A stretch of 64,000 bases of DNA from the NCBI RefSeq assembly GCF_004103715.1, contig NZ_CP035282.1, positions 1,416,673-1,480,672 on the forward strand. The letters run 5' to 3'. Of the stretch, positions 1,669-17,842 are shown piece by piece. Under the pieces are notes generated by a model that ran no database searches, was not told where the DNA came from, and saw only the letters and a program-made list of their open reading frames with translations. This DNA comes from Acidilutibacter cellobiosedens. GTDB taxonomy: Bacteria > Bacillota > Clostridia > Tissierellales > Acidilutibacteraceae. Each line of letters begins with the position of its first letter. Position 1 is the first letter of the stretch. Both the position numbers and the translations under genes were made by a program.

Positions 1669-1699
1669 TGTAGGAATTTAACGGTAGGGGGAGAAATGA

Positions 1700-3103: not shown

Positions 3104-3114
3104 TTGGTATGAAA
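3083..3114 (+). other. Intercistronic stem-loop with the gnd stop codon in its loop
   Basis: Arms TTTCATACCAA (3083-3093) and TTGGTATGAAA (3104-3114) are perfectly complementary over 11 bp around a 10-base loop that ends with the gnd TAG (3101-3103). No T-tract follows, so it is unlikely to be an intrinsic terminator. It may stabilise or process the mRNA between gnd and the PTS genes. The 3115-3255 remainder holds only AT-rich leader and the IIC ribosome site. Confidence 0.5.
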
Positions 3115-3255
3115 TTTATGACATTCTTATGAAAACGTTATAATGCTTTATTGGGTTAAAATATTTTAATTAATAAAGTTTTAAAATTTGATCGGAAAGG
3201 AGGGTAGGCAAAGAAAATTTAATATAGTTATATTATTAAAAAGGAGGAAATAAAA

Positions 3256-4029
3256 ATGGAACATAGTATTACTGTGGCTCAAGCATTAATAATTGCGCTT
3301 TGGGTTGCTTTGGTTGAATCACGTGCTCTTGGCTATGCAACCTTAAACCTAAGATTTAGTCCTTTGATGACAGGATTGGTTGTAGGGCTTGTTATGGGAG
3401 ATGTTCCTACAGCTATGATTGCTACTGCTTCAATACAGTTAATTTATATGGGAATGATCGCTCCGGGAGGAGCTATGCCAAGTGAACCGGCAGTGGCAAC
3501 TGCAATAGCAGTGCCCGTTGCCATATTGGGAGGCTTAAAACCTACGGAAGCAATAGCTGTAGCAGTGCCTGTAGGACTTTTGGGCAGTTATCTTTACCAA
3601 TTTAGATTTTTCCTTAACACGTTTATCACAAGATTAACGGATAAATATGCAGCTCAATTAAACGACAAAGGCTTAAACTTTTCAATCATAATTTTACCGA
3701 CAATTATTAGTTTTGCATTATTTACACCAGCAATGTTTATAGCTTTATATTATGGAACACCAGTAATTGCGAAGTTTACGGCTACTCTCTCCGGAGGAAG
3801 AATATTCCATATACTTGATGTAATAGGAGGAGGACTTGCCGCATTAGGTATTGCACTTATATTACAAGTAATAGGAAAGAAAAAATACCTTGTATTCTTT
3901 CTTTTAGCATATTTTGTATCCGTTATGTTACAACCTCTTAAAATTAATACAGTAACATTTGCTATTATTGGTACAATAGTAGCATATTTGTATATCTTAG
4001 TTACCGGTGAAAAAACCGAAACAAATTAG
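3256..4029 (+). CDS. PTS mannose/sorbose-family transporter subunit IIC
   Basis: 257-residue, very hydrophobic membrane protein of the mannose-fructose-sorbose PTS family. With IID it forms the membrane channel. Family features include the N-terminal AQALIIALWVALVESRALGY, a run of PTAMIATASIQLIYMGMIAP and the GGAMPSEPAVATAIAVPVA segment. About seven membrane segments can be read. The ATG follows AAGGAGG and the gene is 17 bases from IID. It is closest in type to subunits annotated for sugar acids or unassigned substrates, and the adjacent gnd points to gluconate or a ketogluconate. The family call is firm; the substrate is inferred. Confidence 0.9.
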   Translation: MEHSITVAQALIIALWVALVESRALGYATLNLRFSPLMTGLVVGLVMGDVPTAMIATASIQLIYMGMIAPGGAMPSEPAVATAIAVPVAILGGLKPTEAIAVAVPVGLLGSYLYQFRFFLNTFITRLTDKYAAQLNDKGLNFSIIILPTIISFALFTPAMFIALYYGTPVIAKFTATLSGGRIFHILDVIGGGLAALGIALILQVIGKKKYLVFFLLAYFVSVMLQPLKINTVTFAIIGTIVAYLYILVTGEKTETN

Positions 4030-4046
4030 AAGGAGGCAAAGTTAAG

Positions 4047-4925
4047 ATGGATGATAAAGAGAATACAGTTAAAACAGATGTTACTTTAGCAGACTCTCCT
4101 GAAAAAATTACAGATAAGGATTTGCGAAAGAGTTGGTTCAGATGGTGGTATGCAAATGAGATTCCTCATTCTTATGACAGAATGATAGCGGCTTCTTTAC
4201 TTTGGGCAATAACACCTATTTTGAGAAAATTGTATAAAAAGAAAGAAGATTTAAAGGAAGCCTATATGAGACATACACAATTTTATAATACACAGGCTGT
4301 ATGGGGTGGAGGCACTATTCTCGGTATAACGACTTCTTTGGAAGAGGCAAGAGCTAAAGCATTGGCTGAAGGAAAAGGAGAAGCAGTGAGCGGAGATGTA
4401 ATAAATAGTACTAAAGTTGGTCTTATGGGACCTTTGGCCGGTATCGGAGATGCTATTGATTCAGGTACTGTTCAATATATTTTGATAGCTATTGCTTTGC
4501 CTTGGGCAAAGGGAGGAAGTGCTTTAGGTGCCTTATTTCCTTGGTTGATGTTTGTAGCTGTGACTTATATATATGGTTTTTATTTTACTAAACTTGGTTA
4601 TAAATTGGGCCGTTCTGCTGCTACTGAAATTATCGGCGGAAAGAATATAAGAAAGATTATTGATGGGCTGTCTGTATTAGGTCTTTTTATGATGGGAATA
4701 TTGGCATCTTCTTATGTTAAAGTTAGCAGTTCATTAAAATGGACGATTTCGGGGAAAGAATTTGTTCTTCAAGATATATTTAATTCAATACTTCCGGGAC
4801 TGTTGCCGTTAGTTACTGTATTAGGAGTATATTGGTATTTTAACAAAAAGGGATTAAAGATCACCCAGGCACTTTTGGGACTATCCATAATTTTAGGCGT
4901 ACTCGCCGGGGTAGGTATCCTATAA
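4047..4925 (+). CDS. PTS mannose/sorbose-family transporter subunit IID
   Basis: 292 residues, the usual IID length. It is the second integral membrane subunit and is needed with IIC for translocation. A long cytoplasmic N-terminal half contains the family pattern LRKSWFRWWYANEIPHSYDR, then a helical segment with AYMRHTQFYNTQ, and GLMGPLAGIGDAIDSGTVQ, which is characteristic of IID. Several membrane segments end the protein. The ATG follows AGAAGGAGG. A strong terminator-like hairpin lies just downstream and separates IIC-IID from the IIA and IIB genes of the same transporter. Confidence 0.9.
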   Translation: MDDKENTVKTDVTLADSPEKITDKDLRKSWFRWWYANEIPHSYDRMIAASLLWAITPILRKLYKKKEDLKEAYMRHTQFYNTQAVWGGGTILGITTSLEEARAKALAEGKGEAVSGDVINSTKVGLMGPLAGIGDAIDSGTVQYILIAIALPWAKGGSALGALFPWLMFVAVTYIYGFYFTKLGYKLGRSAATEIIGGKNIRKIIDGLSVLGLFMMGILASSYVKVSSSLKWTISGKEFVLQDIFNSILPGLLPLVTVLGVYWYFNKKGLKITQALLGLSIILGVLAGVGIL

Positions 4926-4944
4926 TATTTAAACTATTATTTAA

Positions 4945-4985
4945 GGATTGTCTCTCTTTTTTAGAGAGGCAATCCGGTTTTTAAA
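4945..4985 (+). terminator. Intrinsic terminator inside the PTS operon (between IID and IIA)
   Basis: GGATTG (4945-4950) pairs with CAATCC (4969-4974) and the stem continues through TCTCTCT/AGAGAGG with one wobble pair, about 13 bp in all with a short T loop, followed by GGTTTTTAAATTTTT. It should end or attenuate transcription from the gnd-IIC-IID segment before IIA. The 159 bases from here to the IIA start (4986-5144) hold no gene and no convincing second promoter. Confidence 0.75.
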
Positions 4986-5144
4986 TTTTTAAATATTTTA
5001 TTAAATCATGTATCATAAATGAGGTCAAGAGTTGAAATCCCTTAACGGGAAATCTCTAAACTAAGAAAATCATAATTTCCCTATAGGTTATAAAAATCTT
5101 ATAAGGAGTTGTTAGAATCACCCTATATAGAAAGAAGGAAAAGT

Positions 5145-5564
5145 ATGAAAAAGAAATTTGTTTTAATCATAACTCATGGTAATTTTGGTATAGAATTATT
5201 GAAAAGTGCCGAAATGATTATGGGCGATCAAGAAGATGCTGCTGCTTTGGGGTTAAGATTAGGAGAGAGTGTAGATGATTTGCGCAACAAAGTGGAAGAG
5301 ATTATTGTTGAAAATCAAAAGGCGGATAAGGATATTATAATTCTTGTAGATATTTTAGGCGGCAGCCCGTCAAATGTATCGTTGTATATGTTAAAAAAAT
5401 ATGGTAACATTGAATTAATAACAGGTGTTAATATGCTTATGCTTATAGAAATATTTCAATCAAGAGAGTCTGAAGAATTGGATAAATTAATAGAAAAAGC
5501 TATAGATTCGACTGTAAACGGAATTAAAAGATATAATTTAAAAGGAAAGGACAGTGATTGTTAA
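5145..5564 (+). CDS. PTS mannose-family phosphocarrier IIA
   Basis: 139-residue cytoplasmic EIIA-Man domain that takes phosphate from HPr and passes it to IIB. The phosphorylatable His11 is in IITHGNFGIELLKSAEMIMG. A later ILVDILGGSPSNVS matches the conserved dimer/active-site loop of the family. The ATG at 5145 is chosen because it follows AGAAGGAAAA; an upstream in-frame TTG at 5109 lacks a well-placed ribosome site. The stop codon overlaps the IIB start by one base (TAATG), so IIA and IIB are translationally coupled. The single-domain IIA fits the four-gene layout with separate IIC, IID, IIA and IIB. Confidence 0.92.
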   Translation: MKKKFVLIITHGNFGIELLKSAEMIMGDQEDAAALGLRLGESVDDLRNKVEEIIVENQKADKDIIILVDILGGSPSNVSLYMLKKYGNIELITGVNMLMLIEIFQSRESEELDKLIEKAIDSTVNGIKRYNLKGKDSDC

Positions 5565-6052
5565 TGGGGCAAATAGTATTGGCAAGGGTAGACGATAGGC
5601 TTATTCATGGTCAGGTAATGACAAAATGGTCTAAGGGGATGAATACTAATGCTTTATTTGTTGTTGATGATGCAACTGCTAAAGACCCATTTATGAAGGA
5701 TATATATACGATGTCAACATCAAATACGGGTATGACAATTAAAGTTTTAAGTATCGATGAAGCAGTGGACTACTGGAATAAAAGTAACTTTGAAGATTAT
5801 AAGGCAATACTGTTATTTAAGTCGATTGCCGGGGCTAAAGAAGCCATAGACAAAGGACTCCCTGTAAAAAGATTAAATCTTGGGGGCATAGCTAAGACTA
5901 AAGATTCTAAGTTTGTGATTCCCAATATAGCAGTGAGACATGAAGATATGGATACTTTAAAGGAAGTTGAAAGCAAAGGCATAGAAGTATTTTTCCAAGT
6001 TGTGCCGGATACTAAGTCAGTCAGTTTAAAAGATGCAATTAAATCATTTTAA
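5564..6052 (+). CDS. PTS mannose-family phosphocarrier IIB
   Basis: 162-residue cytoplasmic EIIB of the mannose-sorbose family, which phosphorylates the sugar during transport. The active-site histidine is His15 in ARVDDRLIHGQV, the family signature. The ATG at 5564 shares its first base with the last base of the IIA stop codon, and its ribosome site AAAGGAAAGG lies inside the IIA coding end. It closes the hexonate-type PTS operon and is followed by a terminator shared with the convergent lipoprotein gene. Confidence 0.92.
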   Translation: MGQIVLARVDDRLIHGQVMTKWSKGMNTNALFVVDDATAKDPFMKDIYTMSTSNTGMTIKVLSIDEAVDYWNKSNFEDYKAILLFKSIAGAKEAIDKGLPVKRLNLGGIAKTKDSKFVIPNIAVRHEDMDTLKEVESKGIEVFFQVVPDTKSVSLKDAIKSF

Positions 6053-6085: not shown

Positions 6086-6120
6086 ATAAGAGAGGTGAGA
6101 GAGCCTCTCTTATGTCATTT
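6086..6120. terminator. Bidirectional terminator between the PTS operon and the lipoprotein gene
   Basis: ATAAGAGAGG (6086-6095) pairs perfectly with CCTCTCTTAT (6104-6113) around an 8-base loop. A T-rich stretch follows on the plus strand and an A/T-rich run on the minus side. It lies between the convergent ends of the IIB gene (6052) and the lipoprotein gene (stop at 6115-6117). Confidence 0.75.
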
Positions 6121-7125
6121 TTTAATATTTTCCATGGCCTCTTTTGCAAAATTGGTATTTACTATCTCGTTATAAGGAGGTCTTTCATCTAATTCGCCCG
6201 CCAATTCCATTATATCCATCAGTTTGTTAAGGCCTTCTTCGGTTAAAACTAAATCAGGTTTCCAGGTATCCTGATCTTTATATCTATTTATTAAAGTAAT
6301 AAGTATATCCCTTTCTGTTTCCGGGAATTGTGATTTTAATGAATCCGCTATCTCCTCTGCCGAATGGTTTTGTACCCATACCATTCCTTTGTATATAGCA
6401 TTTGTAAATTTTTGTACTATTTCAGAATTTTCATCCATATATTTTTTTGTGGTGGAATAGCACGTATATGGAATATATCCTGCTTCCTTTCCGATAGATG
6501 CAACTACATATCCCTTTCCTTCTTTTTCTAAGGAGGCAGCCACAGGTTCAAATAAAGTAACGTAATCTCCTTCTCCCGCTATAAAGGCTCCTCCCATAAC
6601 ATCAAATTGTATATCTGTGCGTACTTCCATATCTGTTCCGGGAGTTAAACCGTTTTGTTTTAATACGTACTCCAATACCATTTCAGGCATTCCGCCTTTT
6701 CTTCCACCAATAAGGGACTTTCCTTTTAATTTTTCAAAGGAAAAATTGTCATCTTTTTCTCGTCCTACAAGAAAAGAGCCATCTTTTTGAGTTAACTGAG
6801 CAAAATTTATCGCTTTATTAGTTTTGCTTTGGTTATAGACATATATTGAAGCTTCCGGCCCCATAAAAGCAATATCGGCTTCTCCGCTGAGAAGGGCAGT
6901 CATACATTTATCCGCGCCTTTTCCGTTGATAAGCTCAATTTTTAAACCTTCTTCCTGAAAGAAATTTTCCGTTATTGCTATATATTGAGGAGTATAAAAT
7001 AGAGAATGAGTAACTTCTATTAATTTTACAGTTTTTAGTTCATCTTTTTTACATCCGCTTAAACTAAAACTTAATATTATTGTAAATACTAATAGAAGAT
7101 AAATGAATTTTGATTTTCTAAACAT
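6115..7125 (-). CDS. ABC transporter substrate-binding lipoprotein, SsuA/THI5-like
   Basis: 336-residue extracytoplasmic binding protein. The N-terminus has a lipoprotein signal peptide with a hydrophobic core and lipobox LSGC, the lipidated residue being Cys25. The mature part reads like the NMT1/THI5/SsuA family: VTHSLFYTPQYIAITENFF, then GADKCMTALLSGEADIAFMG, then FEKLKGKSLIGGRKGGMPE. Such proteins bind sulfonates, nitrate, pyrimidine precursors or other small molecules. No permease or ATPase gene is adjacent, so it is an orphan here and must use a partner elsewhere or act alone. It is transcribed divergently from pgsA. Family confidence is high; the ligand is unknown. Confidence 0.85.
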   Translation of the reverse strand: MFRKSKFIYLLLVFTIILSFSLSGCKKDELKTVKLIEVTHSLFYTPQYIAITENFFQEEGLKIELINGKGADKCMTALLSGEADIAFMGPEASIYVYNQSKTNKAINFAQLTQKDGSFLVGREKDDNFSFEKLKGKSLIGGRKGGMPEMVLEYVLKQNGLTPGTDMEVRTDIQFDVMGGAFIAGEGDYVTLFEPVAASLEKEGKGYVVASIGKEAGYIPYTCYSTTKKYMDENSEIVQKFTNAIYKGMVWVQNHSAEEIADSLKSQFPETERDILITLINRYKDQDTWKPDLVLTEEGLNKLMDIMELAGELDERPPYNEIVNTNFAKEAMENIKK

Positions 7126-8009: not shown

Positions 8010-8026
8010 TGGTATAAATATTGCAT
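8010..8026 (+). promoter_or_regulatory. Sigma-54 (-24/-12) promoter of the PTS regulator gene
   Basis: TGGTATAAATATTGCAT has GG at 8011-8012 and GC at 8023-8024, separated by exactly 10 bases, matching the TGGNNN-N5-TTGCA pattern. The predicted start near 8035 lies 16-17 bases before the chosen ATG of a gene that itself encodes a sigma-54 activator, so the regulator may control its own transcription. Confidence 0.7.
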
Positions 8027-8051
8027 AAATTGTGAAATGGGGAGTGGAATT

Positions 8052-11048
8052 ATGAAAGACCGTTTAGTACAGATAATTAAAACTGAAGATAAGAAAAACC
8101 CTTATACTGATGATCGCTTAGCTGAAATGCTCGATACTCGAAGAGATGCAGTTACGGCCTTAAGAAATGAATTAAGTATCCCAGATTCGAGAGAACGACG
8201 TAAACCTTATTTAGTAGAAGCCATTAGAGAAATAATTTCAAAAAATCCGGAAATATCGAACCGACAACTTACCAAGATTATTAAAGATCGAGGTTTTAAC
8301 GTATCAAAATATTTAATATCTCAAATAGCCCTACAGATTAAAGAAAAAATATTTGATTTGAATTTGGTGATGAGCCATAATGAGCCCTTAGAACATTTAA
8401 ACCTTAAATCGAATTTTAATCTAAAAAATACATTAAAATATCCATCTGAATTGTTGGCCTTTAGTAGAATTATAGGTTTTGATGGAAGTCTGAAATCTCA
8501 GATTCAACAGGCAAAAGCTGCAATATTATATCCTCCTCACGGCCTTCATACTTTGATTTTAGGACCTACCGGAGTTGGAAAAAGTAATCTGGCAGAAGCT
8601 ATGTATGATTATGCACTTGAAATCAAAGCCATTTCTGAAACTGCTCCTTTTATTATTTTCAATTGTGCAGATTATGCTGAAAATCCGCAGCTTCTTTTAT
8701 CACAACTTTTTGGACATGTAAAGGGAGCTTATACCGGAGCCGCTGTCTTAAAAAAAGGATTAGTGGAAAAAGCTGATGGCGGAATATTGTTTTTAGATGA
8801 GGTTCATCGTTTGCCTCCGGAAGGTCAAGAACTGCTTTATTTTTTAATGGATAAGGGAAAATTTCGTCGTATGGGAGAAACTGAGACAGAACGAACAGCA
8901 AATATTTTGATTATAGCAGCAACTACAGAGGATATTGAATCATCTTTACTTTTGACTTTCCGCAGGAGAATACCGATGATCATAGAGCTTCCATCTCTGT
9001 CCGTAAGACCTCTTGATGAAAGATATCATATAATAAAGGCCTTTTTTAATAAAGAAGCAGATAGAATAGGGGTCAAAATAAAGATTATCCAAGAAGCTTT
9101 AAGAGCTCTTTTAATGTATAGTTGCCCAGGAAATATAGGACAACTCAGAAGTGATATTCAAGTTGCTTGTGCAAGAGGTTTTCTGAATTGCATAAGCAGT
9201 CAAAGAGAATATATTGAGGTTGGCTTGTCAGATTTACCTGTTCACGTTCAAAAGGGATTATTAAAAATACAAGAGCGTAATCCGGAAGTTGAGTATTTTA
9301 TCAAAGAAGATTTAATGACAAAACCTAATCAAAGCGAAACTAATATTGAACCTGAGCCTAAAGAAGACCTTTATACATTACCTCGAGAAATTTATGGATA
9401 TATTGAAGAGAGATATCACGAATTAGAGTTACAAGATTTAACTCAAGACGAGATAAACAAGTTAATCGGCGAAGAATTGGAAATAAAATTCCAGCAATTG
9501 ATAAAACGAGTAGAAACCAGTCACCCAACCTTAGCTAAGCAAGATTTAGCCGAGATAGTGGGCCAAAATATAGTTGATATAACAGAGAAAGCAACAAAAA
9601 TTGCAGAAAAGCGGATTGGGGGAATAGATAAGCATCTTTTTTATTGCCTTGCGATACATTTAAGTGCAACTTTTGAACGAATTCAACAGGGAAAGCCAAT
9701 TGTGAATCCTCATCTTGATAAAGTTATGAAGAAATATAAGTTGGAATATAATGTGGCAAAAGAAATGGTCAAACATATTGAGCTTTTATCAGGATATAAA
9801 ATACCACAGGATGAAATCGGTTTTATAGCTATGTATCTTCGAACAATTACGAGTCCGTCAGACGAAAAACGGGGAAGAGTTGGAGTTTTAGTACTTTCTC
9901 ATGGTAGAGTGGCTCAAGGTATGGCAGAAGTGGCAAATCGGCTGTTAGGTGTAAATCATGCAGTAAGTATAGAAATGTCGCTGGATGAAAAACCCGAATC
10001 AGCTCTTCAAAGAACAATCGAAGTTGTATATAAAATCAATGAAGGTAAAGGAGTTTTAATTCTTGTAGATATGGGTTCATTAATCACCTTTGGAGAAATA
10101 ATCACCAAAAAAACGGGGATTCCCACCAAAACCGTTGGCAGAGTGGATACAGTAATGGTTTTGGAAGCTGTCAGACGGGCTATTGTGCCGGACACTAATT
10201 TGAATGAAATCGTAAACAGCATAGATAAAGATAAAATAGTACTTGGAAGATTTGTACCTTCAGAAACTTCAAGAGATAAAAAAGTAATTATTACTTTGTG
10301 CATAACTGGGGAAGGTACGGCTATAAAAATTAAAAGACTTATCGAAAAAATGCTGCCGAATATTAAAGAAAAAGCTGAAATTATTCCAATGGGAGTCGCA
10401 GGAGATGAAGATATATCTACAAAAATGAATAATATTAGAAAACAATATACAGTATCAGCGGTTATTGGAAGCATAGACCCTAAAGATAATTTAGTGCCTT
10501 TTATTTCAGTGGAAGAAATAATAGATGGTAATGCTATAGAAAGGTTGAAAAGTATTGTTTATATGGAATCTCCTTCACAGATGTTAAAAAATGGTGATGT
10601 TATCAAAATCCCTTTTGCTAAAGTAATTCATGAGGAGCTTATAATGGTCAGACCTGATTATTGCAATAAAAATGAGGTGTTAGACGGCCTTGCGGAACTT
10701 TTAATTAAAGGTGGGTTTGCGAAAGAAAAATTTTTGCTTGATGTATATAAAAGAGAAATCATGGAACCAACGTTATTAAAAGAGAAATTTGCGATTCCAC
10801 ACGGAAATCCCCAAAATGTTATAAAGCCGGCTATAGCTATTGCTATATTAAATAATTCAATAATATGGTCGGAAGAAAATGAGGTAGAAAATGTTTTCAT
10901 GATGGCATTAAAAGAGGATTCGACAGATATTTTAAATAATTTTTATAAGTTAATAAAAACTCCCAACTTATCGGAGAAATTGAAAAAATCTCGCAATCCT
11001 CAAGAAGTAAAAAGCATTATTTCAGAGATATTGATATCCTGCCACTAA
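8052..11048 (+). CDS. LevR/ManR-type sigma-54-dependent activator with PTS-regulation domains
   Basis: 998-residue DNA-binding activator. Order of parts: N-terminal helix-turn-helix region (~1-95); AAA+ sigma-54-interaction domain (~136-370) with Walker A GPTGVGKS (171-178), the sigma-54 contact loop GAYTGA (225-230) and Walker B GGILFLDE (243-250); a PRD domain around 510-610 with a candidate phospho-His near 535; an EIIA-Man-like domain with LSHGRVAQG near 615; an EIIB-Gat-like segment with LCITGEGTA near 749; and a C-terminal EIIA-Mtl/Ntr-like domain with AIPHGNP near 915. Phosphorylation of these domains by PTS proteins is known in the family to set activity. The ATG at 8052 follows GGGGAG by 7 bases; an ATG at 8037 has no ribosome site. 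It directly precedes the galactitol-type PTS operon it probably controls. Confidence 0.93.
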   Translation: MKDRLVQIIKTEDKKNPYTDDRLAEMLDTRRDAVTALRNELSIPDSRERRKPYLVEAIREIISKNPEISNRQLTKIIKDRGFNVSKYLISQIALQIKEKIFDLNLVMSHNEPLEHLNLKSNFNLKNTLKYPSELLAFSRIIGFDGSLKSQIQQAKAAILYPPHGLHTLILGPTGVGKSNLAEAMYDYALEIKAISETAPFIIFNCADYAENPQLLLSQLFGHVKGAYTGAAVLKKGLVEKADGGILFLDEVHRLPPEGQELLYFLMDKGKFRRMGETETERTANILIIAATTEDIESSLLLTFRRRIPMIIELPSLSVRPLDERYHIIKAFFNKEADRIGVKIKIIQEALRALLMYSCPGNIGQLRSDIQVACARGFLNCISSQREYIEVGLSDLPVHVQKGLLKIQERNPEVEYFIKEDLMTKPNQSETNIEPEPKEDLYTLPREIYGYIEERYHELELQDLTQDEINKLIGEELEIKFQQLIKRVETSHPTLAKQDLAEIVGQNIVDITEKATKIAEKRIGGIDKHLFYCLAIHLSATFERIQQGKPIVNPHLDKVMKKYKLEYNVAKEMVKHIELLSGYKIPQDEIGFIAMYLRTITSPSDEKRGRVGVLVLSHGRVAQGMAEVANRLLGVNHAVSIEMSLDEKPESALQRTIEVVYKINEGKGVLILVDMGSLITFGEIITKKTGIPTKTVGRVDTVMVLEAVRRAIVPDTNLNEIVNSIDKDKIVLGRFVPSETSRDKKVIITLCITGEGTAIKIKRLIEKMLPNIKEKAEIIPMGVAGDEDISTKMNNIRKQYTVSAVIGSIDPKDNLVPFISVEEIIDGNAIERLKSIVYMESPSQMLKNGDVIKIPFAKVIHEELIMVRPDYCNKNEVLDGLAELLIKGGFAKEKFLLDVYKREIMEPTLLKEKFAIPHGNPQNVIKPAIAIAILNNSIIWSEENEVENVFMMALKEDSTDILNNFYKLIKTPNLSEKLKKSRNPQEVKSIISEILISCH

Positions 11049-11062
11049 AGCTTCCATGAAGG

Positions 11063-11080
11063 TTGGAACGGAATTTGCAT
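11063..11080 (+). promoter_or_regulatory. Sigma-54 (-24/-12) promoter of the galactitol-type PTS operon
   Basis: TTGGAACGGAATTTGCAT carries GG at 11065-11066 and GC at 11077-11078, exactly 10 bases apart, with the TTTGCA -12 block intact. It lies 15 bases after the activator stop and about 90 bases before the IIB start. This is a canonical position for a LevR-controlled PTS promoter. Confidence 0.8.
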
Positions 11081-11169
11081 TTTATAATCGTAGCTGCAGC
11101 TTAAATAGATATTCGAGTTTTAAGGAGGAGATGCATATTAAATTAAATAAACATAAAAGGAGGGAAGTT

Positions 11170-11481
11170 ATGATGAAGGCAAAGAAACAAGTAGTGATTT
11201 TGGTTGCTTGCGGTAGTGGCATTGCTACATCTACTCTTGCGGCAGATGCAATAAAGGATATTTGTGATGAGATAGGCATTGATGCAGTGATAAAAAAGAG
11301 TAATATGAGTGAAATACTAACAAAAGCACAAGATGTGGACGTCGTATTTACAACTAACAAGTATAGTGAGACATTACCTGTACCATCTTTAAGTGTTACC
11401 TCACTTATTACAGGTATTGGTGAGGACGAGATTAGAAAAAAATGTAAAGAATTGTTATCTAAAATAGCGGAAAATGTTTAG
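11170..11481 (+). CDS. PTS galactitol-family IIB
   Basis: 103-residue cytoplasmic EIIB of the galactitol (Gat) family. The phosphocysteine is Cys14 in ILVACGSGIATST, the P-loop-like motif at the end of the first beta strand. It receives phosphate from IIA (16963-17409) and hands it to the sugar bound by IIC. The start is placed at the ATG-ATG pair 11170-11175, behind AAGGAGGG; an earlier in-frame ATG at 11131 sits too close to its own purine-rich stretch. It is the first gene of the operon after the -24/-12 promoter. Confidence 0.9.
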   Translation: MMKAKKQVVILVACGSGIATSTLAADAIKDICDEIGIDAVIKKSNMSEILTKAQDVDVVFTTNKYSETLPVPSLSVTSLITGIGEDEIRKKCKELLSKIAENV

Positions 11482-11526
11482 ATAAAAAATATTAAATATA
11501 CTTTATAGAAAGGAAAGGTGAAAACT

Positions 11527-12825
11527 ATGGAACACTTGGTATCGATTATAAGACAAGTACTAGATATTGGTGCAATTGCTGTTCTTCCGATAATTATTAC
11601 TATTTTAGGATTGTTTTTTAAAATGAATTTTTTCAAAGCATTCAAAAGCGGACTATTATTGGGAATTGGATTTCAAGGGCTTAAATTGGTTATTTCACTA
11701 TTAATAACGACAATAGAACCGGTTACTAATTATTATGCCGCTTCAGCAACGGGATATGCATTTACTACTATAGATGTTGGGTGGCAGACACTTTCTGCAG
11801 CAGCCTGGATGACACCCTTTGCCGCAGTTGTTTTACCGTTAGGTCTTATTGTTAACATAATATTAATTAAGTTTAAAGTTACAAAGACATTCAATATTGA
11901 CATTTGGAATTATTGGCATATATTAATGGCTTCTTCTATTCTTTATTATATATTCTCAAGAGCCGACATGTCAGGAGCCGTTCCATTTGCTATTTGTACT
12001 GTGTTTGCCATGTTGTTGGTAGCTATTATATGTATTGTCGGAGATAAAATTGCTCCGTTCTGGCAAAGAAATTTTGGATATGAGGGAACAACCTGTACGA
12101 CTATGAGTTCAACATTATCAGCAGTTCCCGTTGTCTATGTTTTGAATAAGATAGTAGATATAATTCCCGGAGTTAACAAGGTCGACATCAACTTATCTTG
12201 GATTAACAAGAAATTAGGGCCATTGGGAGATCCTGCTCTTGTAGGTTTTATTGTAGGTTTATTTCTTGCAATTATAACTAGACAAACTCCTACAGTAATA
12301 ATTCAAATAGCGGTTGGAATAGCAGCGGTTATTGTTTTGATGCCAAGAATGGTAGGTCTGCTTATGGAAGGACTAACTCCGATTAGTAAAGCCGCGAAAA
12401 ATTATATGACAAAGCATGTTGGAGAAGATCAGGAATTACTTATTGGTACAGATGCAGCATTTGCTATTGGTGACCAAACTGCCGTTACATTGAGTCTTTT
12501 ATTAATGCCAATTACAATTGCACTCGCATTTATCATTCCAGGAAACAATTATTTCCCGGTAGGCATGTTTGCTTCTATTCCTTATTTTGCAGGAATGATT
12601 AGTATGATGACTGACAGGAACCTTTTCCGCGGATTAATTACAGGAACATTGTATATGGTGTTTATTGTAGTTTCACTCAATTTTATGGCAGATGTCGGTA
12701 CAAGCTTTGTCACTTCAGCAGGTGTGTTAGAACTTGAAAAGGGACTAAAAGTTACTGCTGCATCCCTGGCAAATGTCGTTGATATTTTGATGGTGCTGAT
12801 TGCGAAACTATTCAAAGTATTATAA
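11527..12825 (+). CDS. PTS galactitol-family transporter subunit IIC
   Basis: 432-residue polytopic membrane protein of the EIIC-GAT family. The N-terminus (IIRQVLDIGAIAVLPIIITI), the GYAFTTIDVGWQTLSAAAW segment and the later LLIGTDAAFAIGDQTAVTLS loop are typical. It contains about ten hydrophobic segments. The ATG at 11527 follows AGGAAAGG; an upstream GTG at 11518 abuts that site. Substrates of the family include galactitol, arabitol and other polyols, so the exact one cannot be read from sequence. A 7-bp hairpin (12849-12865) without a strong T-tract lies in the 102-base gap before the next gene. Confidence 0.9.
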   Translation: MEHLVSIIRQVLDIGAIAVLPIIITILGLFFKMNFFKAFKSGLLLGIGFQGLKLVISLLITTIEPVTNYYAASATGYAFTTIDVGWQTLSAAAWMTPFAAVVLPLGLIVNIILIKFKVTKTFNIDIWNYWHILMASSILYYIFSRADMSGAVPFAICTVFAMLLVAIICIVGDKIAPFWQRNFGYEGTTCTTMSSTLSAVPVVYVLNKIVDIIPGVNKVDINLSWINKKLGPLGDPALVGFIVGLFLAIITRQTPTVIIQIAVGIAAVIVLMPRMVGLLMEGLTPISKAAKNYMTKHVGEDQELLIGTDAAFAIGDQTAVTLSLLLMPITIALAFIIPGNNYFPVGMFASIPYFAGMISMMTDRNLFRGLITGTLYMVFIVVSLNFMADVGTSFVTSAGVLELEKGLKVTAASLANVVDILMVLIAKLFKVL

Positions 12826-12927
12826 AAGAAGTTGTATGTAAAAATCATATTAGCATTATGCTAATTAATTTTCAAATAAAATATAAAAAACAAAACTGAT
12901 AAGTATATTAAAGAAAGGGAGAGAACT

Positions 12928-13968
12928 ATGAAAGAAAAAATGAGAATGGCTATTTGGTATGGACCAGAAGATGTAAGAATTGAAGAAAGAGATATGTTTG
13001 ATTTGGAAGATGACGCTGTTATCATGAAGGTAAAAGTATCCTTAACTTGCGGAACGGATGTAAAAACATATAAAAGAGGACATCCAAATTATCGCCCGGG
13101 GATAACTTTCGGTCATGAAGCAGCAGGAATTGTATATAAGAAAGGGAAAAACGTACAAAATTTTGAAATAGGAGATAGAATTGTACCACATAGTGCCGCT
13201 ATGTGTGGTAATTGTTATTACTGTAAGACAGGAAGAAATGACGGATGCTGTGAACATAGAGTCAGGATTATCGGCGGCCATTCGGAATATGTATATATTC
13301 CAGGCGTAATTGTAAGACAAAACCTATTTAAAATTCCTAAGGATGTTAGTTATAAAGCGGCAGCATTAACAGAACCTCTATCATGTGCAATGTATGCCGC
13401 AGATATGACGAAGTTTAGTTATGGAGATTGTGTTGTTGTAATGGGAGCAGGCCCAATTGGGTTAATGATTTCCATGATTGTTAAGAAGATGGGAGCTCAT
13501 GTCATCCAAACTGATTTTTCTCAATCAAGGTTGGAAGTATCGAAAAAACTTGGAATTGATACTACTGTACTTCTTAACAGCGACATGGATGTAGTAGAGA
13601 CTATCAGAGCTCTAACTCCTGAGGGAAGAGGGGCAGATGCTGTAATTGATGCTACCGGACAACCTGTAGCTTGGGAAAACTGTATTAATATCTCTCGAAA
13701 GGGCGGATATATCAACTTGTTTGGAGGGTGTAAGCCGGGCACAACAATCACTATCGATACTGAAAGAATGCATTACGGCGGACTTACCATTGCAGCTTTT
13801 TTCCACACAACACCAAAACATGTTATGATGGCAAATAACATGATTAATCACCACGAAATCCCTGAAGATATTTTTGTAACGGGAGAATATAAATTTGAGG
13901 ATTTAATAGAAGCATTGGAAGCACATGCAAACCAGATAGGTGTGAAAAATGCCCTTATCTATGAATAA
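12928..13968 (+). CDS. Zinc-dependent medium-chain dehydrogenase (polyol-phosphate dehydrogenase candidate)
   Basis: 346-residue cytosolic MDR-family enzyme. Catalytic zinc ligands Cys41 (in CGTD) and His63-Glu64 (in GHE) are present, as are the four structural-zinc cysteines at 93, 96, 99 and 107. The Rossmann fold carries GAGPIG near 171. It belongs with sorbitol, galactitol-phosphate and threonine dehydrogenase-like proteins. Coming straight after a polyol-type IIC gene, it probably oxidises the incoming alditol phosphate to a ketose phosphate. The ATG follows AAAGGGAGAG. A second MDR gene (15881-16942) in the same operon suggests two oxidation steps or two substrates. Confidence 0.88.
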   Translation: MKEKMRMAIWYGPEDVRIEERDMFDLEDDAVIMKVKVSLTCGTDVKTYKRGHPNYRPGITFGHEAAGIVYKKGKNVQNFEIGDRIVPHSAAMCGNCYYCKTGRNDGCCEHRVRIIGGHSEYVYIPGVIVRQNLFKIPKDVSYKAAALTEPLSCAMYAADMTKFSYGDCVVVMGAGPIGLMISMIVKKMGAHVIQTDFSQSRLEVSKKLGIDTTVLLNSDMDVVETIRALTPEGRGADAVIDATGQPVAWENCINISRKGGYINLFGGCKPGTTITIDTERMHYGGLTIAAFFHTTPKHVMMANNMINHHEIPEDIFVTGEYKFEDLIEALEAHANQIGVKNALIYE

Positions 13969-13995
13969 TAAGAAAAGAATGGAGTGACAAATAAA

Positions 13996-14664
13996 ATGAA
14001 AAACAAAATTGAAAAAGCAAAACAAGATGTTATGTGGGGTGTCAAAATGATGGTCGAGAGAGGTTATTCCTTGGGTACGGCCGGAAATATCAGTGCAAGA
14101 GTTGAAGGAGAAGACTTATTCGTTATAACTCCGTCTTCTCGCCCATATAACACCTTAGAATTAAATGATTTATGTTTAATTGATATGAAGGGAAACATAG
14201 TTGATGCGAAATTTAAGCCTTCTGTAGAGGCTACTATGCACAGGTTCATATATTTAGATAGAATAGAAGTTAATGACATTATTCATTCGCACTCCAAATA
14301 CGGAACTTTGGTGAGTTCCATTGAAAATATAAAAGAACTTCCAATCATTGATGTTGAAAGTATTTCCTATTTAGGTGGAGAGGTACCTATTGCGCCTTTT
14401 GCTCCGGCCGGTTCTTTGGAGTTAGCTACAAGTGTAAAAAATTCAATTGGTACAAGTGCGGGAGTGCTTATGGAAAATCATGGTACCATAGGTGTGGGGA
14501 TTACTATGGAAAAAGCTCTTATTGCAAGTGATAATATTGAGCGAACAAGTGAACAATTCTTGTTCCTTCTTGCAACCGGATTAAGAAAAAAAGAAATTCC
14601 GAATGACTATGTTAATAAAGTTAGAGAAATATCAAAAGTCAACCGAAAGATATCTACTAAGTAG
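13996..14664 (+). CDS. Class II aldolase/adducin-family protein, FucA-like
   Basis: 222 residues, the normal length for L-fuculose-1-phosphate aldolase and L-ribulose-5-phosphate 4-epimerase relatives. Zinc ligands His97 and His99 (in IIHSHS) and His162 (in MENHG) are present, with Glu78 in KPSVEATMHR matching the catalytic glutamate of FucA. Aldolases of this group split ketose 1-phosphates into dihydroxyacetone phosphate and an aldehyde. Next to a polyol PTS and dehydrogenases this would be the carbon-cleaving step. The ATG at 13996 is preferred to a GTG at 13984, which overlaps the purine-rich GGAG. Aldolase versus epimerase cannot be settled by motif alone. Confidence 0.85.
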   Translation: MKNKIEKAKQDVMWGVKMMVERGYSLGTAGNISARVEGEDLFVITPSSRPYNTLELNDLCLIDMKGNIVDAKFKPSVEATMHRFIYLDRIEVNDIIHSHSKYGTLVSSIENIKELPIIDVESISYLGGEVPIAPFAPAGSLELATSVKNSIGTSAGVLMENHGTIGVGITMEKALIASDNIERTSEQFLFLLATGLRKKEIPNDYVNKVREISKVNRKISTK

Positions 14665-14680
14665 AAATGGGGAGTAATAT

Positions 14681-15799
14681 ATGATGAAAAAATTTAGGAT
14701 TGTTCCGGATATTTATCAATGTGATACTTTTAATGATTTCTTAGATAGTTTCCCTTTGAATTCTGATGATTTGATAATTACAAATCGTTATATCTATGAT
14801 CCTTTTATTAAAAAATTCAATCTGCCATGTCATTTCGTATATCAGGAAGAACATGGCTCAGGTGAGCCGAGCGACATTATGGTCGATGCAATATTAACGA
14901 ACATAAAGAATATTTCATACAAAAGAGTAATAGGAATTGGCGGCGGGACAGTAATTGATATAGCGAAGGTACTCTCAATTAGAAAATTTGATTGTTGTGA
15001 TGAGATATTTGACGATCCGTCGAAAATAAAAAAAGACAAAAAATTGATTATAATTCCTACAACTTGTGGTACAGGCAGTGAGGTAACCAGATCATCAATT
15101 ATTAGTTCAACGAAGCGCAAAACCAAAATGAGAATGGCGTATGATGCCTACTTTGCTGATATTGCTGTTTTAATACCGGAATTTATCAGCACTCTGCCCT
15201 ATAAGTTCTTTGCATTTAGTTCAATTGATGCATTAATTCATGCTGTAGAATCATATCTTTCTCCGGAAGCAACTCCATATACGGATTTATTTTCGGGAAA
15301 GGCAATCAAGATACTGTTACAATCGTTTGTAACCATCTCTAAAAATGGAGTTGATTCTAGAAGAACTGTTGAGAGGGATGTGTTACTTGCAAGTAATTTT
15401 GCCGGGATATCTTTTGGTAATGCAGGATGTGGTGCTGTCCATGCTCTTGCTTTTCCGCTAAGCGGAAGATATGGAGTTGTGCATGGGGAAAGTAATTACC
15501 AGTTTTTTGTTCAGGTGCTTAAATTGTACTATAAGAAAAAACCTGAAGGCAAAATTTCATATTTAATAGAAATGATTGTAGATATTCTTCAATGCCATAC
15601 TGATCAGGCATTGGAATGTTTGGCCGTTTTACTCAACGATATTTGGAAAATTAAGAGTTTGAGCTGTTTTGGTATGGGAGAAGATGAGATAGAAGAGTTT
15701 TCCAAAGAGGTATATTTAACTTTACAACCGGTTCTTTCTACTAGTTATGTAAAGCTGAGCCAAGATGAATTAGCTGAAATATACAGGAAATTGTTATAA
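14681..15799 (+). CDS. Iron-containing (group III) alcohol dehydrogenase family protein
   Basis: 372 residues, typical for the Fe-ADH/dehydroquinate-synthase-like superfamily. It has the nucleotide loop GIGGGTVIDIAK, the PTTCGTGSEVT segment, metal ligands Asp183 and His187 in SIDALIHAVES, and later histidines in GAVHALAFPLSGRYGVVHGE. It most resembles 4-hydroxybutyrate-dehydrogenase-like members. Following a FucA-like aldolase, it could reduce the released aldehyde, as FucO does in fucose breakdown, and so regenerate NAD+. ATG codons at 14681 and 14684 both follow GGGGAG. The substrate is inferred only. Confidence 0.87.
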   Translation: MMKKFRIVPDIYQCDTFNDFLDSFPLNSDDLIITNRYIYDPFIKKFNLPCHFVYQEEHGSGEPSDIMVDAILTNIKNISYKRVIGIGGGTVIDIAKVLSIRKFDCCDEIFDDPSKIKKDKKLIIIPTTCGTGSEVTRSSIISSTKRKTKMRMAYDAYFADIAVLIPEFISTLPYKFFAFSSIDALIHAVESYLSPEATPYTDLFSGKAIKILLQSFVTISKNGVDSRRTVERDVLLASNFAGISFGNAGCGAVHALAFPLSGRYGVVHGESNYQFFVQVLKLYYKKKPEGKISYLIEMIVDILQCHTDQALECLAVLLNDIWKIKSLSCFGMGEDEIEEFSKEVYLTLQPVLSTSYVKLSQDELAEIYRKLL

Positions 15800-15880
15800 A
15801 TTGAATAATTGTAAGATCAAATTTATAGGATTATTATGGTAGACTTGATTTCATGATTTCAAAAGAAAGGAGTGTCATTT

Positions 15881-16942
15881 TTGAGAGCATTGATGCGACT
15901 ATCCCCAAAAGCAAATGATATGGAGTTGGTCAATACTGAAGAACCTAAAATATTAAAAAGTACTGACGTCAAAGTTAAAGTAGTTTATGCGGGTGTTTGT
16001 GGGGGAACCGATATAAAATTAAAGAAGGTCGATGTTGGCGGACGGTTTGACAAATTAAAACCACCTGTTATTCTTGGACATGAAGCATCTGGATATGCCG
16101 TTGAAGTAGGTACAGATGTAAAGAAAACGAAAATAGGAGATAGAGTTGTATATGAAACAACCGTAGAACCATGCGGTTCATGTAGATATTGTCATTCAGG
16201 CGATTGGAATATGTGCTCACATAGAAAGGGATTAGGTTCAAGTACGAATGGTAGCTTTGCGGATTTTGTTGTAGTTCCGGAACGAAACATAAGAGTTATA
16301 CCCAGTGAACTTTCTCTGAAAACTGCTGTACTTTCAGAACCTATGGCTTGTGCGTATCATATAGTTAGTGAAAGAGGATGTATAAAGGCCGGAGAAAATG
16401 TTGTTATTATTGGTCCGGGTATTATTGGGTTATGCTGTGCTTTAGTTGCATTGTTTTCGGGGGCGAATGTTGTTGTAATTGGTACGGAAAAAAGTAGGGA
16501 AACTCGGTTGAAGATTGCAAAAAAATTTGGATGCCATGTTTTAGTTAATGATGGACATAACTTAAAAGAAAGAGTTCAAGAAATTTTCGATGGAGAATTT
16601 GCAGATTTAGCCATTGATGCTGTTGGTTCTCAAAACTCTTTTAATTCAGGATTAAGCTTAGTCAGAAAAATGGGTCGCGTTGTAATAACAGGTGTTCCCA
16701 GTTTGGATACTGAATTATATACTATAGACATGTCTTATATTTACAGAAATCAGATTTGTATTACTTCCGGCAGAAGTTCAACCCCATCGAGTTGGACAGG
16801 CTCATTGAAGGTTTTGCAGAAATATCACAATCAATTGGAAGAATTGGTTTCACATGTTTATTCGCCTGAGAAATGGAAAGAAGCATTTGAAGCCACCGAG
16901 AAGAAGCAAGCAATTAAGGCCGTAATTGATTTTGAAAAATAG
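15881..16942 (+). CDS. Second zinc-dependent medium-chain dehydrogenase
   Basis: 353-residue MDR enzyme. Zinc site: Cys40 in GVCGGTD and His67-Glu68 in LGHEASG; structural-zinc cysteines at 98, 101, 104 and 112. The Rossmann motif is GPGIIG. The start is taken as TTG at 15881, eight bases after AAGGAG, giving the MRALMRLSP opening usual in the family; a GTG at 15872 overlaps the ribosome site. It is only distantly similar to the first MDR of the operon (12928-13968), so it is not a recent duplicate. It probably oxidises a polyol, polyol phosphate or threonine-like substrate. Confidence 0.87.
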   Translation: MRALMRLSPKANDMELVNTEEPKILKSTDVKVKVVYAGVCGGTDIKLKKVDVGGRFDKLKPPVILGHEASGYAVEVGTDVKKTKIGDRVVYETTVEPCGSCRYCHSGDWNMCSHRKGLGSSTNGSFADFVVVPERNIRVIPSELSLKTAVLSEPMACAYHIVSERGCIKAGENVVIIGPGIIGLCCALVALFSGANVVVIGTEKSRETRLKIAKKFGCHVLVNDGHNLKERVQEIFDGEFADLAIDAVGSQNSFNSGLSLVRKMGRVVITGVPSLDTELYTIDMSYIYRNQICITSGRSSTPSSWTGSLKVLQKYHNQLEELVSHVYSPEKWKEAFEATEKKQAIKAVIDFEK

Positions 16943-16962
16943 ACGTTAGGAGATTAATAATC

Positions 16963-17409
16963 ATGGTAAAAAATATATTGGTAATAGAGTCAAATGCAAA
17001 AACTTCCAAAGAAGCTATAACGGAAGCATTTCAAGAGTTGTATATGAGAGGTTATGTTAAAGAAACCTTTCTGAAAAACTGTCTTGAAAGAGAAAGGGAA
17101 TACCCCACAGGTTTGATGACTGAAATTCCCGTTGCAGTACCTCATACAGATACTAAATATGTCAATGAATCGGCTATTTGTATTGTCCGATTAAAAAATC
17201 CTGTAGTTTTTCGAAACATGGAAGATCCCAGTTCAACGATTAATGCTGAATTTGTATTTAATCTTGCACTAAAAACAGGAGAAGACCATATAAACACATT
17301 AAAAACTGTTGTTAATATTGTACAGGACAATGAGTTCTTGAAGGAAGCAAAGGTTGCCTCTTTAGAGACAGTGAAGTTAAAGATTCTGGAACGCTGGGAT
17401 TCTTTTTAA
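16963..17409 (+). CDS. PTS galactitol/fructose-type IIA
   Basis: 148-residue EIIA of the Mtl/Fru/Gat/Ntr class, completing the transporter whose IIB and IIC are at 11170-12825. The phosphohistidine is His61 in IPVAVPHTDTKYV. The ATG follows TTAGGAG and lies 20 bases after the second MDR stop, so it ends the operon. Placing IIA last, far from IIB-IIC, is unusual compared with the common A-B-C order. After its stop there is only a short GC-rich hairpin (CGGGAA/TTCCCG near 17514) with no good T-tract, so the operon's terminator is unclear. Confidence 0.9.
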   Translation: MVKNILVIESNAKTSKEAITEAFQELYMRGYVKETFLKNCLEREREYPTGLMTEIPVAVPHTDTKYVNESAICIVRLKNPVVFRNMEDPSSTINAEFVFNLALKTGEDHINTLKTVVNIVQDNEFLKEAKVASLETVKLKILERWDSF

Positions 17410-17573: not shown

Positions 17574-17599
17574 ATATAATATAACGTAATATTAATTAC

Positions 17600-17842
17600 T
17601 TTGACGGAGAAGAGTAGATAAATACTTCTGTACAGAGAGGAAGATCCGAGGGCTGAGAGATTTTCTCATAAAAGGTTTATTGAAGGTAGCTCTTGAGTTT
17701 TCAGATTGAAATGACAGTAAATCTGAACGGGTAATTCCGTTATATAGTTTGTTATAATTAAGAGCCGCAGCATGTTTGGCGGAATTAAGGTGGTACCGCG
17801 TATTAACCCTTCGTCCTTATATTTAAGGATGAAGGGTTTTTA
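17600..17842 (+). ncRNA. T-box leader controlling valS
   Basis: The T-box sequence AAGGTGGTACCGCG lies at 17787-17800 and is followed by a terminator: AACCCTTCGTCCTTA (17805-17819) pairs with TAAGGATGAAGGGTT (17824-17838) with one wobble, then TTTT. The opening GACGGAGAAGAG is typical of stem I. A GTA in GAAGGTAGCTCTT (17686-17688) sits where the specifier codon should be, next to the arm closing stem I, and GUA reads valine. Uncharged tRNA-Val would favour the antiterminator and allow valS expression. Confidence 0.93.

Follow-up and report, generated by a model that had tools for sequence, protein, structure and literature searches.

A probable galactitol-type phosphotransferase operon of Acidilutibacter cellobiosedens contains an aldolase and two dehydrogenases that recur in another operon of this genome

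What does a galactitol-family (Gat) phosphotransferase system (PTS) do in one operon with an aldolase, an iron-type alcohol dehydrogenase (Fe-ADH) and two zinc dehydrogenases (ZnDH1 and ZnDH2)? The question is raised by eight genes of Acidilutibacter cellobiosedens, which lie on the plus strand at positions 8010-17409 of the window, i.e., the whole 64,000-nucleotide stretch analysed here (G000:C1:1416673-1480672 of a one-contig genome of 3.74 Mb). The aldolase, the Fe-ADH and ZnDH2 are encoded together a second time in this genome, beside another type of transporter, and this recurrence is new here. It falls only a little short of probable, in our view, that the eight genes form a catabolic operon induced by its substrate, a polyol or a close sugar that the Gat PTS takes up, and that in this operon an AtlR-like pentitol entry would be kept and the pentose-phosphate exit replaced by carbon-carbon cleavage and reduction of the resulting aldehyde.

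The list of open reading frames (ORFs) and their Pfam domains bore out the gene set of the original prediction (a LevR-type activator, a Gat PTS with IIA last, two unlike zinc dehydrogenases, an aldolase and an Fe-ADH), in this order:

8037-11048, plus strand: LevR/DagR-type sigma-54-dependent activator, 1003 amino acids (Pfam Sigma54_activat, PRD, EIIA-man, EIIA_2; GAYTGA loop).
11170-11481, plus strand: PTS galactitol-family IIB (Pfam PTS_IIB; NCBIfam).
11527-12825, plus strand: PTS galactitol-family IIC (Pfam EIIC-GAT; TIGR00827); start at ATG, the ORF being listed from a GTG at 11518.
12928-13968, plus strand: ZnDH1, a putative polyol-phosphate dehydrogenase (Pfam ADH_N/ADH_zinc_N; NCBIfam).
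13996-14664, plus strand: class II aldolase-superfamily protein (Pfam Aldolase_II); start at ATG, the ORF being listed from a GTG at 13984.
14681-15799, plus strand: Fe-ADH (Pfam Fe-ADH), with relatives that appear to be like 4-hydroxybutyrate dehydrogenases.
15881-16942, plus strand: ZnDH2 (Pfam ADH_N/ADH_zinc_N); start at TTG, the ORF being listed from a GTG at 15872.
16963-17409, plus strand: PTS galactitol-family IIA (Pfam PTS_EIIA_2).

With the preferred starts of IIC, the aldolase and ZnDH2, which were judged by eye from the sequence and the ribosome-binding sites, the intergenic gaps from IIB to IIA measure 16-102 bases. None of the 10 terminator-like sites detected lies on the plus strand inside these gaps, and the spacing makes co-transcription from IIB through IIA likely. 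The activator combines an AAA+ domain bearing a GAFTGA-like loop (GAYTGA here) with PRD and EII-like domains, as expected of LevR/PRD-type sigma-54 activators; its best NCBIfam model is DagR (488 bits against a cut-off of 1400). The transporter has the EIIC-GAT, lactose/galactitol-type IIB and EIIA_2-type IIA of the Gat family, each as its own gene, and its genes stay below the galactitol-equivalog cut-offs (IIC, 281 bits to TIGR00827 against 542). ZnDH1 and ZnDH2 share 29% identity and differ, by eye, at the residue that follows the second strand of the nucleotide fold (Asp in ZnDH1, Thr in ZnDH2).

The second operon lies at about 2.059-2.069 Mb of G000:C1 on the minus strand (locus L032). 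It starts with a Tdh-like zinc dehydrogenase, an FbaA/GatY-like aldolase and a mannose-type PTS (IIA, recognised by its likeness to EIIA-man of the window, then a fused IIC-IID and IIB), and goes on with a D-2-hydroxyacid dehydrogenase, the class II aldolase, ZnDH2, the Fe-ADH and an SDR; a sigma-54 site of its own and a divergent LevR-type activator accompany it. Identity to the window proteins amounts to 73% for the aldolase, 64% for the Fe-ADH and 63% for ZnDH2, and nothing there is close to ZnDH1 (at most 31%). The order of the trio differs (aldolase-FeADH-ZnDH2 in the window versus aldolase-ZnDH2-FeADH in the paralogous operon). Because the three genes recur beside two different transporters, we regard them as one unit. 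It is a tentative and somewhat doubtful proposal that this unit is an undescribed cassette, which would cleave a common phosphate derived from sugars or polyols, reduce the aldehyde set free and have been fitted into at least two PTS operons under sigma-54 control (galactitol-type and mannose-type); its reductase would have come from amino-acid fermentation, through the reshaping of an enzyme like 4-hydroxybutyrate dehydrogenase. ORFs resembling type I CRISPR-Cas genes were seen by eye downstream of the paralogous operon (L032 685-7472), with transposase-like ORFs standing between the operon and these genes.

According to the reading that we prefer for the window operon, the PTS and its phosphorylation state would signal the substrate to the activator, which with sigma-54 would switch on IIB-IIC-ZnDH1-aldolase-FeADH-ZnDH2-IIA. 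ZnDH1 would turn the imported alditol phosphate into a ketose phosphate by oxidation, and a retro-aldol reaction of the class II aldolase would split this product into a short aldehyde and a triose phosphate. The Fe-ADH, presumably reshaped from a 4-hydroxybutyrate-dehydrogenase-like ancestor, would reduce the short aldehyde and thereby re-oxidise the cofactor. ZnDH2, which is grouped with the aldolase and the Fe-ADH because the three recur together, may carry out a second oxidation or else a reduction or epimerisation. The outline (uptake, oxidation, cleavage, reduction) is that of the original prediction and stays plausible; the analogies to FucA and FucO on which it drew are unsupported at the family level, and it leaves the second zinc dehydrogenase unexplained.

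Most probably, the aldolase is a lyase of the class II aldolase superfamily that depends on a metal. Its residues E78, H97, H99 and H162 are invariant in 10 of the 10 class II aldolases aligned and correspond to the FucA metal set (Glu73, His92, His94 and His155), as well as to the catalytic Glu76 of DrdA. The structure model is confident (mean pLDDT 93.7), and the solved folds closest to it are those of DrdA and FucA. DrdA, an enzyme of the 5-deoxyribose/dihydroxyacetone phosphate (DHAP) shunt, is closest in sequence, too, and shares the catalytic Glu and the metal histidines; in the excerpted account of DrdA the equivalent Glu serves as acid/base (PMC6079011). The DrdA pathway as described in that excerpt is entered through a kinase and an isomerase (PMC6079011). 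Identity to DrdA is, however, 26-27%, and an equivalent of Tyr113 is missing from the window aldolase. By hand-counted positions FucA Tyr113 is replaced by V120 (Leu in the paralog), and the FucA phosphate loop (T43-G44 / S71-S72) is altered, with G44 changed to Ser and S72 to Val. These changes make it less than certain that the enzyme would cleave a ketose 1-phosphate of the DHAP type. No NCBIfam cut-off is reached by the aldolase: the best model is a subfamily named L-ribulose-5-phosphate 4-epimerase (129.7 bits against 251), the third is OxoTetrPhDc, i.e., 3-oxo-tetronate 4-phosphate decarboxylase (103 bits against 250), and the FucA and AraD models gave 92 bits (TIGR01086 fucA, cut-off 400) and 58 bits (TIGR00760, cut-off 389). 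The earlier label of a FucA-type aldolase thus stands as to the superfamily and the conserved metal residues and fails as to the FucA cut-off, Tyr113 and part of the phosphate loop.

The name of the best NCBIfam model leads to an explanation that we regard as unlikely, yet worth weighing, namely an ordinary AtlR-type pentitol operon, in which both zinc dehydrogenases would yield pentulose 5-phosphates, the aldolase homologue would be an AraD-like 4-epimerase, the pentose phosphate enzymes would be encoded elsewhere and the Fe-ADH would serve redox balance. AraD epimerases have an Asp where aldolases have a Glu. The window protein has E78 there, as do 10 of the 10 sequences aligned, and in a hand alignment the position of AraD Asp120 is occupied by Ser; this speaks against the possibility, which the original prediction had named as one that would overturn it, that the aldolase is an epimerase. 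Published systems favour this explanation and resemble the entry half of the window operon. As far as the excerpted text goes, the AtlR regulon of Clostridiales comprises atlEFG and atlD-tkt-rpi-araD-manB for pentitol catabolism (Nie et al. 2019, PMC6615313), AtlR being in our reading one of four PRD-containing groups and atlEFG a PTS; it resembles the window in its sigma-54 activator and promoter, its transport genes and its dehydrogenase, with an araD-type gene among the targets (PMC6615313). A sigma-54 promoter does stand beside transport and dehydrogenase genes in the window, together with a sigma-54 activator. In contrast to the AtlR targets listed in that text, the window operon lacks tkt, rpi and manB; it has in addition an Fe-ADH and a further zinc dehydrogenase that is unlike the first. 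No tkt, rpi or manB was found by Pfam, nor any rpe, in the operon (8-17.4 kb) or among eight ORFs of 0.7-7.8 kb, and the next gene downstream is valS, preceded by a T-box leader at 17592-17821. Because tkt, rpi and manB are absent from these regions, we do not file the window operon under AtlR.

The arabitol operon atlABCD of B. methanolicus likewise has, in the parts of the article considered, a Gat-like PTS, the alditol-phosphate dehydrogenase AtlD and a second dehydrogenase gene resembling Gat-1-P dehydrogenase (PMC6685057). It differs in its BglG-type regulator, and the cluster rows of Table 3 name neither a class II aldolase nor an Fe-ADH, one gene being called 'hypothetical' (PMC6685057). 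Among open-licence papers searched by title and the start of the abstract, none described a polyol operon with a PTS, a class II aldolase and an Fe-ADH, and none described a 4-hydroxybutyrate dehydrogenase in a PTS context. The earlier statement that no standard pathway has exactly this gene set is borne out, as far as searched, for all the genes taken together; the entry half is near to the published pentitol regulons of AtlR, as far as these are described in the excerpt (PMC6615313).

By its sequence, the Fe-ADH points away from fucose catabolism. Its best solved relative by sequence is 'Cvir-Hbd2' (PDB 30sm; E 1e-101), followed at 1e-30 by the next and at about 1e-18 by FucO, and it scores 115.6 bits to the FucO model TIGR02638 (cut-off 523). 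From the PDB molecule name and the neighbouring genes we read Cvir-Hbd2 as a 4-hydroxybutyrate dehydrogenase; a literature search found no paper under that name. Enzymes of this type were detected in 16 of 150 plus 8 of 196 genomes (source genome included), and of the 23 matches outside the source genome, 20 were aligned, placed in a tree and examined in their contexts (L026, L103 and L104 were omitted). These relatives are 41-49% identical to the window Fe-ADH. In stretches of about 9-17 kb, some of which end at contig ends, 15 of the 20 adjoin at least one of a coenzyme A (CoA)-transferase (13 contexts), an HpaB-type protein (13, one a fragment) and a gamma-aminobutyrate (GABA)-type aminotransferase, and five adjoin none. 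HpaB-type proteins form the family of 4-hydroxybutyryl-CoA dehydratase. The neighbours are named after their best NCBIfam models (e.g., butyryl-CoA:acetate CoA-transferase and GABA transaminase), all below cut-off, and the relatives themselves, which reach no curated cut-off, carry the 4-hydroxybutyrate-dehydrogenase label as a probable one. EII genes, ZnDH1, ZnDH2 and the window-type aldolase occur in none of the 20 stretches.

In the phylogenetic tree, the window Fe-ADH and its paralog form a clade with full support (100/100) on a long branch (0.87), and a fork supported by 99/95 joins them with 14 of the 20 relatives, the other six and one very distant outgroup, used as root, lying outside; two deeper forks are weaker (84/81 and 82/83). 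The pair is likely nested within the 4-hydroxybutyrate-type group, with a root that is not firm, as the tree was midpoint-rooted with the single outgroup on a branch of 6.13, the placement of which is unsure; a root on the long branch of the pair would make it a sister group instead. All 22 sequences (the relatives, the window Fe-ADH and the paralog) retain the metal ligands D183, H187, H254 and H268. Eleven positions identical in all 20 relatives are changed in both operon copies (N137R, G151R, Y216F, S257A, Y258F, Y330F, Q348L, R350P/S, L351V, N354T and N355S), and Cvir-Hbd2 retains N137, R350, N354 and N355. Conserved metal ligands together with these changes are the pattern that recruitment with a change of substrate would be expected to leave; judged by FucO numbering, the changed residues presumably lie near the substrate. 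Furthermore, the window Fe-ADH has Arg36 where 17 of the 20 relatives have an acidic residue. Compared with the 4-hydroxybutyrate-dehydrogenase-like enzymes, whose function is a likely one, the window protein thus belongs to the same Fe-ADH subfamily and differs by its place in a sugar operon and by these eleven changes.

Since both copies have lost residues invariant in the 20 relatives, a true 4-hydroxybutyrate dehydrogenase in disguise was judged less probable, if still conceivable. The thought had been suggested by the one HpaB-type, 4-hydroxybutyryl-CoA-dehydratase-like gene of the genome (L114) and by the result that, at E<=1e-60, the source genome has no Fe-ADH of this type beyond the two operon copies. 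That HpaB-type gene lies with ORFs like 2-oxoacid oxidoreductase, thiolase, 3-hydroxyacyl-CoA dehydrogenase and crotonase (L114 5633-12144; G000:C1 about 1.153-1.159 Mb), and the 18 kb of this locus contain no Fe-ADH or CoA-transferase like those near the relatives.

The relatives of the Fe-ADH also raise the possibility, which appears rather improbable, that the trio handles a carboxylated intermediate: the polyol or sugar would first be oxidised to an acid, an OtnC-like decarboxylase or a retro-aldolase would free a semialdehyde, and the Fe-ADH would convert it to a hydroxyacid. The clustering of the Fe-ADH with enzymes from 4-hydroxybutyrate-type loci, the rank of OxoTetrPhDc among the models of the aldolase and the D-2-hydroxyacid dehydrogenase of the paralogous operon favour this explanation. 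It is opposed by the loss, in the Fe-ADH and its paralog, of the eleven shared residues, among them N137, R350, N354 and N355, which may bind the carboxylate, as if the carboxylate site had been given up; nor do the Pfam domains of the window operon include an aldehyde-to-acid dehydrogenase.

L-Fucose catabolism through FucA and FucO follows the logic of a class II aldolase combined with an iron-type dehydrogenase and is entered via an isomerase and a kinase. The window shares this logic; unlike that pathway, it has PTS entry and neither enzyme is close to FucA or FucO by sequence. We consider very improbable the exact route of the original prediction, in which L-fucitol or another deoxyalditol would undergo FucA-like cleavage to DHAP and lactaldehyde and FucO-like reduction to 1,2-propanediol. 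In its favour, the superfamilies match, FucA and DrdA are the closest folds of the aldolase, and a comparison of the Fe-ADH by fold puts FucO first. The Fe-ADH sequence is nevertheless far nearer to Cvir-Hbd2, and the aldolase falls well below the fucA cut-off and lacks Tyr113. The fucitol reading was lowered by the ranking of PDB entries by sequence, the Fe-ADH tree and the contexts of the 20 relatives, and the claim of an Fe-ADH as in fucose catabolism was weakened with it: by sequence lactaldehyde reductase is not the nearest enzyme, and the relatives stand mostly beside 4-hydroxybutyrate-type genes.

The search of genomes for the same gene set, which the original prediction had called for, showed the full window set to be rare among the genomes sampled. 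Searches with the aldolase gave matches in 1 of 391 genomes of the class (E<=1e-40), in 2 of 249 of the order (profile, E<=1e-45; the source genome and G489, with a relative 43% identical) and in 1 of 398 of the phylum; these sets overlap, each includes the source genome, and the source genome is the single sampled member of its family. A wider contig scan with the aldolase, the reach of which is limited to close relatives, added one relative at 30%, and tblastn against 72,556 plasmid records gave none at 1e-25. ZnDH1-type enzymes occur in 2 of 211 genomes. The operon of G489 is a partial match, with an activator, IIA, a zinc dehydrogenase, IIC, IIB, ZnDH1 (49%) and the aldolase (43%); its activator is 61% identical to that of the window over 795 residues and looks orthologous, and the 13 kb of this locus hold neither an Fe-ADH nor ZnDH2. 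In G350 (L085) a BglG-type regulator precedes ZnDH1 (45%), IIB, IIC, a class II aldolase and IIA, and the combination of Gat PTS, ZnDH1-like dehydrogenase and class II aldolase was seen in L053 and L085. In G301 (L090, an AtlR-like locus) a LevR-type activator is accompanied by a Gat PTS and two zinc dehydrogenases, one of them 37-40% identical to both ZnDH2 proteins, and then by ORFs like transketolase halves, RpiB and Rpe (recognised from the sequence rather than by domain search). Two loci of the source genome that were found via their aldolases, L033 and L034, also carry Gat PTS genes. A Gat PTS with a zinc dehydrogenase and a class II aldolase is therefore a recurrent but non-universal theme, from which the window operon stands apart because of its Fe-ADH and ZnDH2. 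By eye, near-alike IS-transposase-like ORFs of 484 residues lie in or beside two other Gat PTS loci of the same genome (L034 4835-6289 and L092 9972-11426), and the ZnDH1-like ORF adjoining the latter has just 294 codons and looks truncated.

Several observations, besides the altered Tyr113 and phosphate-loop positions of the aldolase, tell against a polyol route with retro-aldol cleavage. The scheme uses one zinc dehydrogenase and the operon has two; among the possible substrates, none of fucitol, a pentitol or a tetritol is singled out. The paralogous PTS is of the mannose type, so that the trio may work on something other than an alditol phosphate. Members of the superfamily that are decarboxylases or dehydratases also have Glu at the position of E78, and the relatives of the Fe-ADH could imply a carboxylated rather than a sugar-derived aldehyde. 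Foldseek ranks FucO first for the Fe-ADH and 30sm is absent among the matches listed, a rank that we take to reflect the general Fe-ADH fold. A class II aldolase is present in only 4 of 11 stretches around Gat IIC genes (L085, L086, L087 and L092), and the ZnDH1 relative of G116, at a contig end, has no PTS genes in the 9 kb read. Lastly, gene spacing is the one basis for co-transcription.

The predicted sigma-54 control agrees with a -24/-12 site between the activator gene and IIB and with a sigma-54 gene in the genome. The two candidate sites of the locus are:

11064-11079, plus strand: sigma-54 promoter candidate TGGAACGGAATTTGCA, in the 121-base gap from the activator gene to IIB.
8010-8025, plus strand: weaker sigma-54 (-24/-12) candidate TGGTATAAATATTGCA, with 2 mismatches, upstream of the activator gene.

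With one mismatch allowed, the pattern of TGGAACGGAATTTGCA has 16 sites in the genome (both strands) against 4 for a reversed control. By arithmetic from the genome counts, about 0.0003 sites would be expected by chance on that strand of the gap. The window is not enriched at 2 mismatches (20 sites found against 14.7 expected; 9 of 100 shuffles reach 20), and the case for sigma-54 control rests on the position of the site because the motif count is not enriched. With a looser pattern, a similar site directly 3' of the activator gene was present in 5 of 6 loci with a LevR-type gene before PTS genes (the window, L053, L091, L093 and L094; L090 is without it). L034 and the paralogous operon, which have another gene order, show a sigma-54 site upstream of the first operon gene, and ATAAATATTGC is common to the weak site at 8010-8025 and the site upstream of the paralogous operon. 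A shared upstream activator site was sought among the direct and inverted repeats that precede the sigma-54 sites, which yielded nothing convincing; the inverted repeat of L093 and L094 does not recur in the window even when up to 3 mismatches are allowed. Six of the 16 genome sites are one identical 16-mer, TGCCACGATACTTGCT, found at six places in G000:C1, which suggests a repeated element rather than promoters.

Upstream in the window, a separate group at 679-6052 comprises a D-2-hydroxyacid dehydrogenase, a 6-phosphogluconate dehydrogenase and a mannose/sorbose-type PTS (IIC, IID, IIA and IIB), with an ORF resembling an RpiR-type regulator, by eye, near it at the window edge; it is possibly a PTS sugar-acid locus. 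At 6115-7125 (minus strand) lies a lone gene for an NMT1/THI5-like substrate-binding protein, the listed neighbours of which are not parts of an ABC transporter.

If the substrate were a common pentitol, the operon would be an ordinary variant of AtlR-type catabolism. If the preferred reading is true, the sigma-54/PTS polyol systems known so far would gain an exit by carbon-carbon cleavage, an enzyme of fermentation would have been put to use in breaking down sugars, and the three proteins would form a compact set that, assayed jointly, could define a new catabolic step; the pair of operons, one cassette with two transporters, provides a built-in test.

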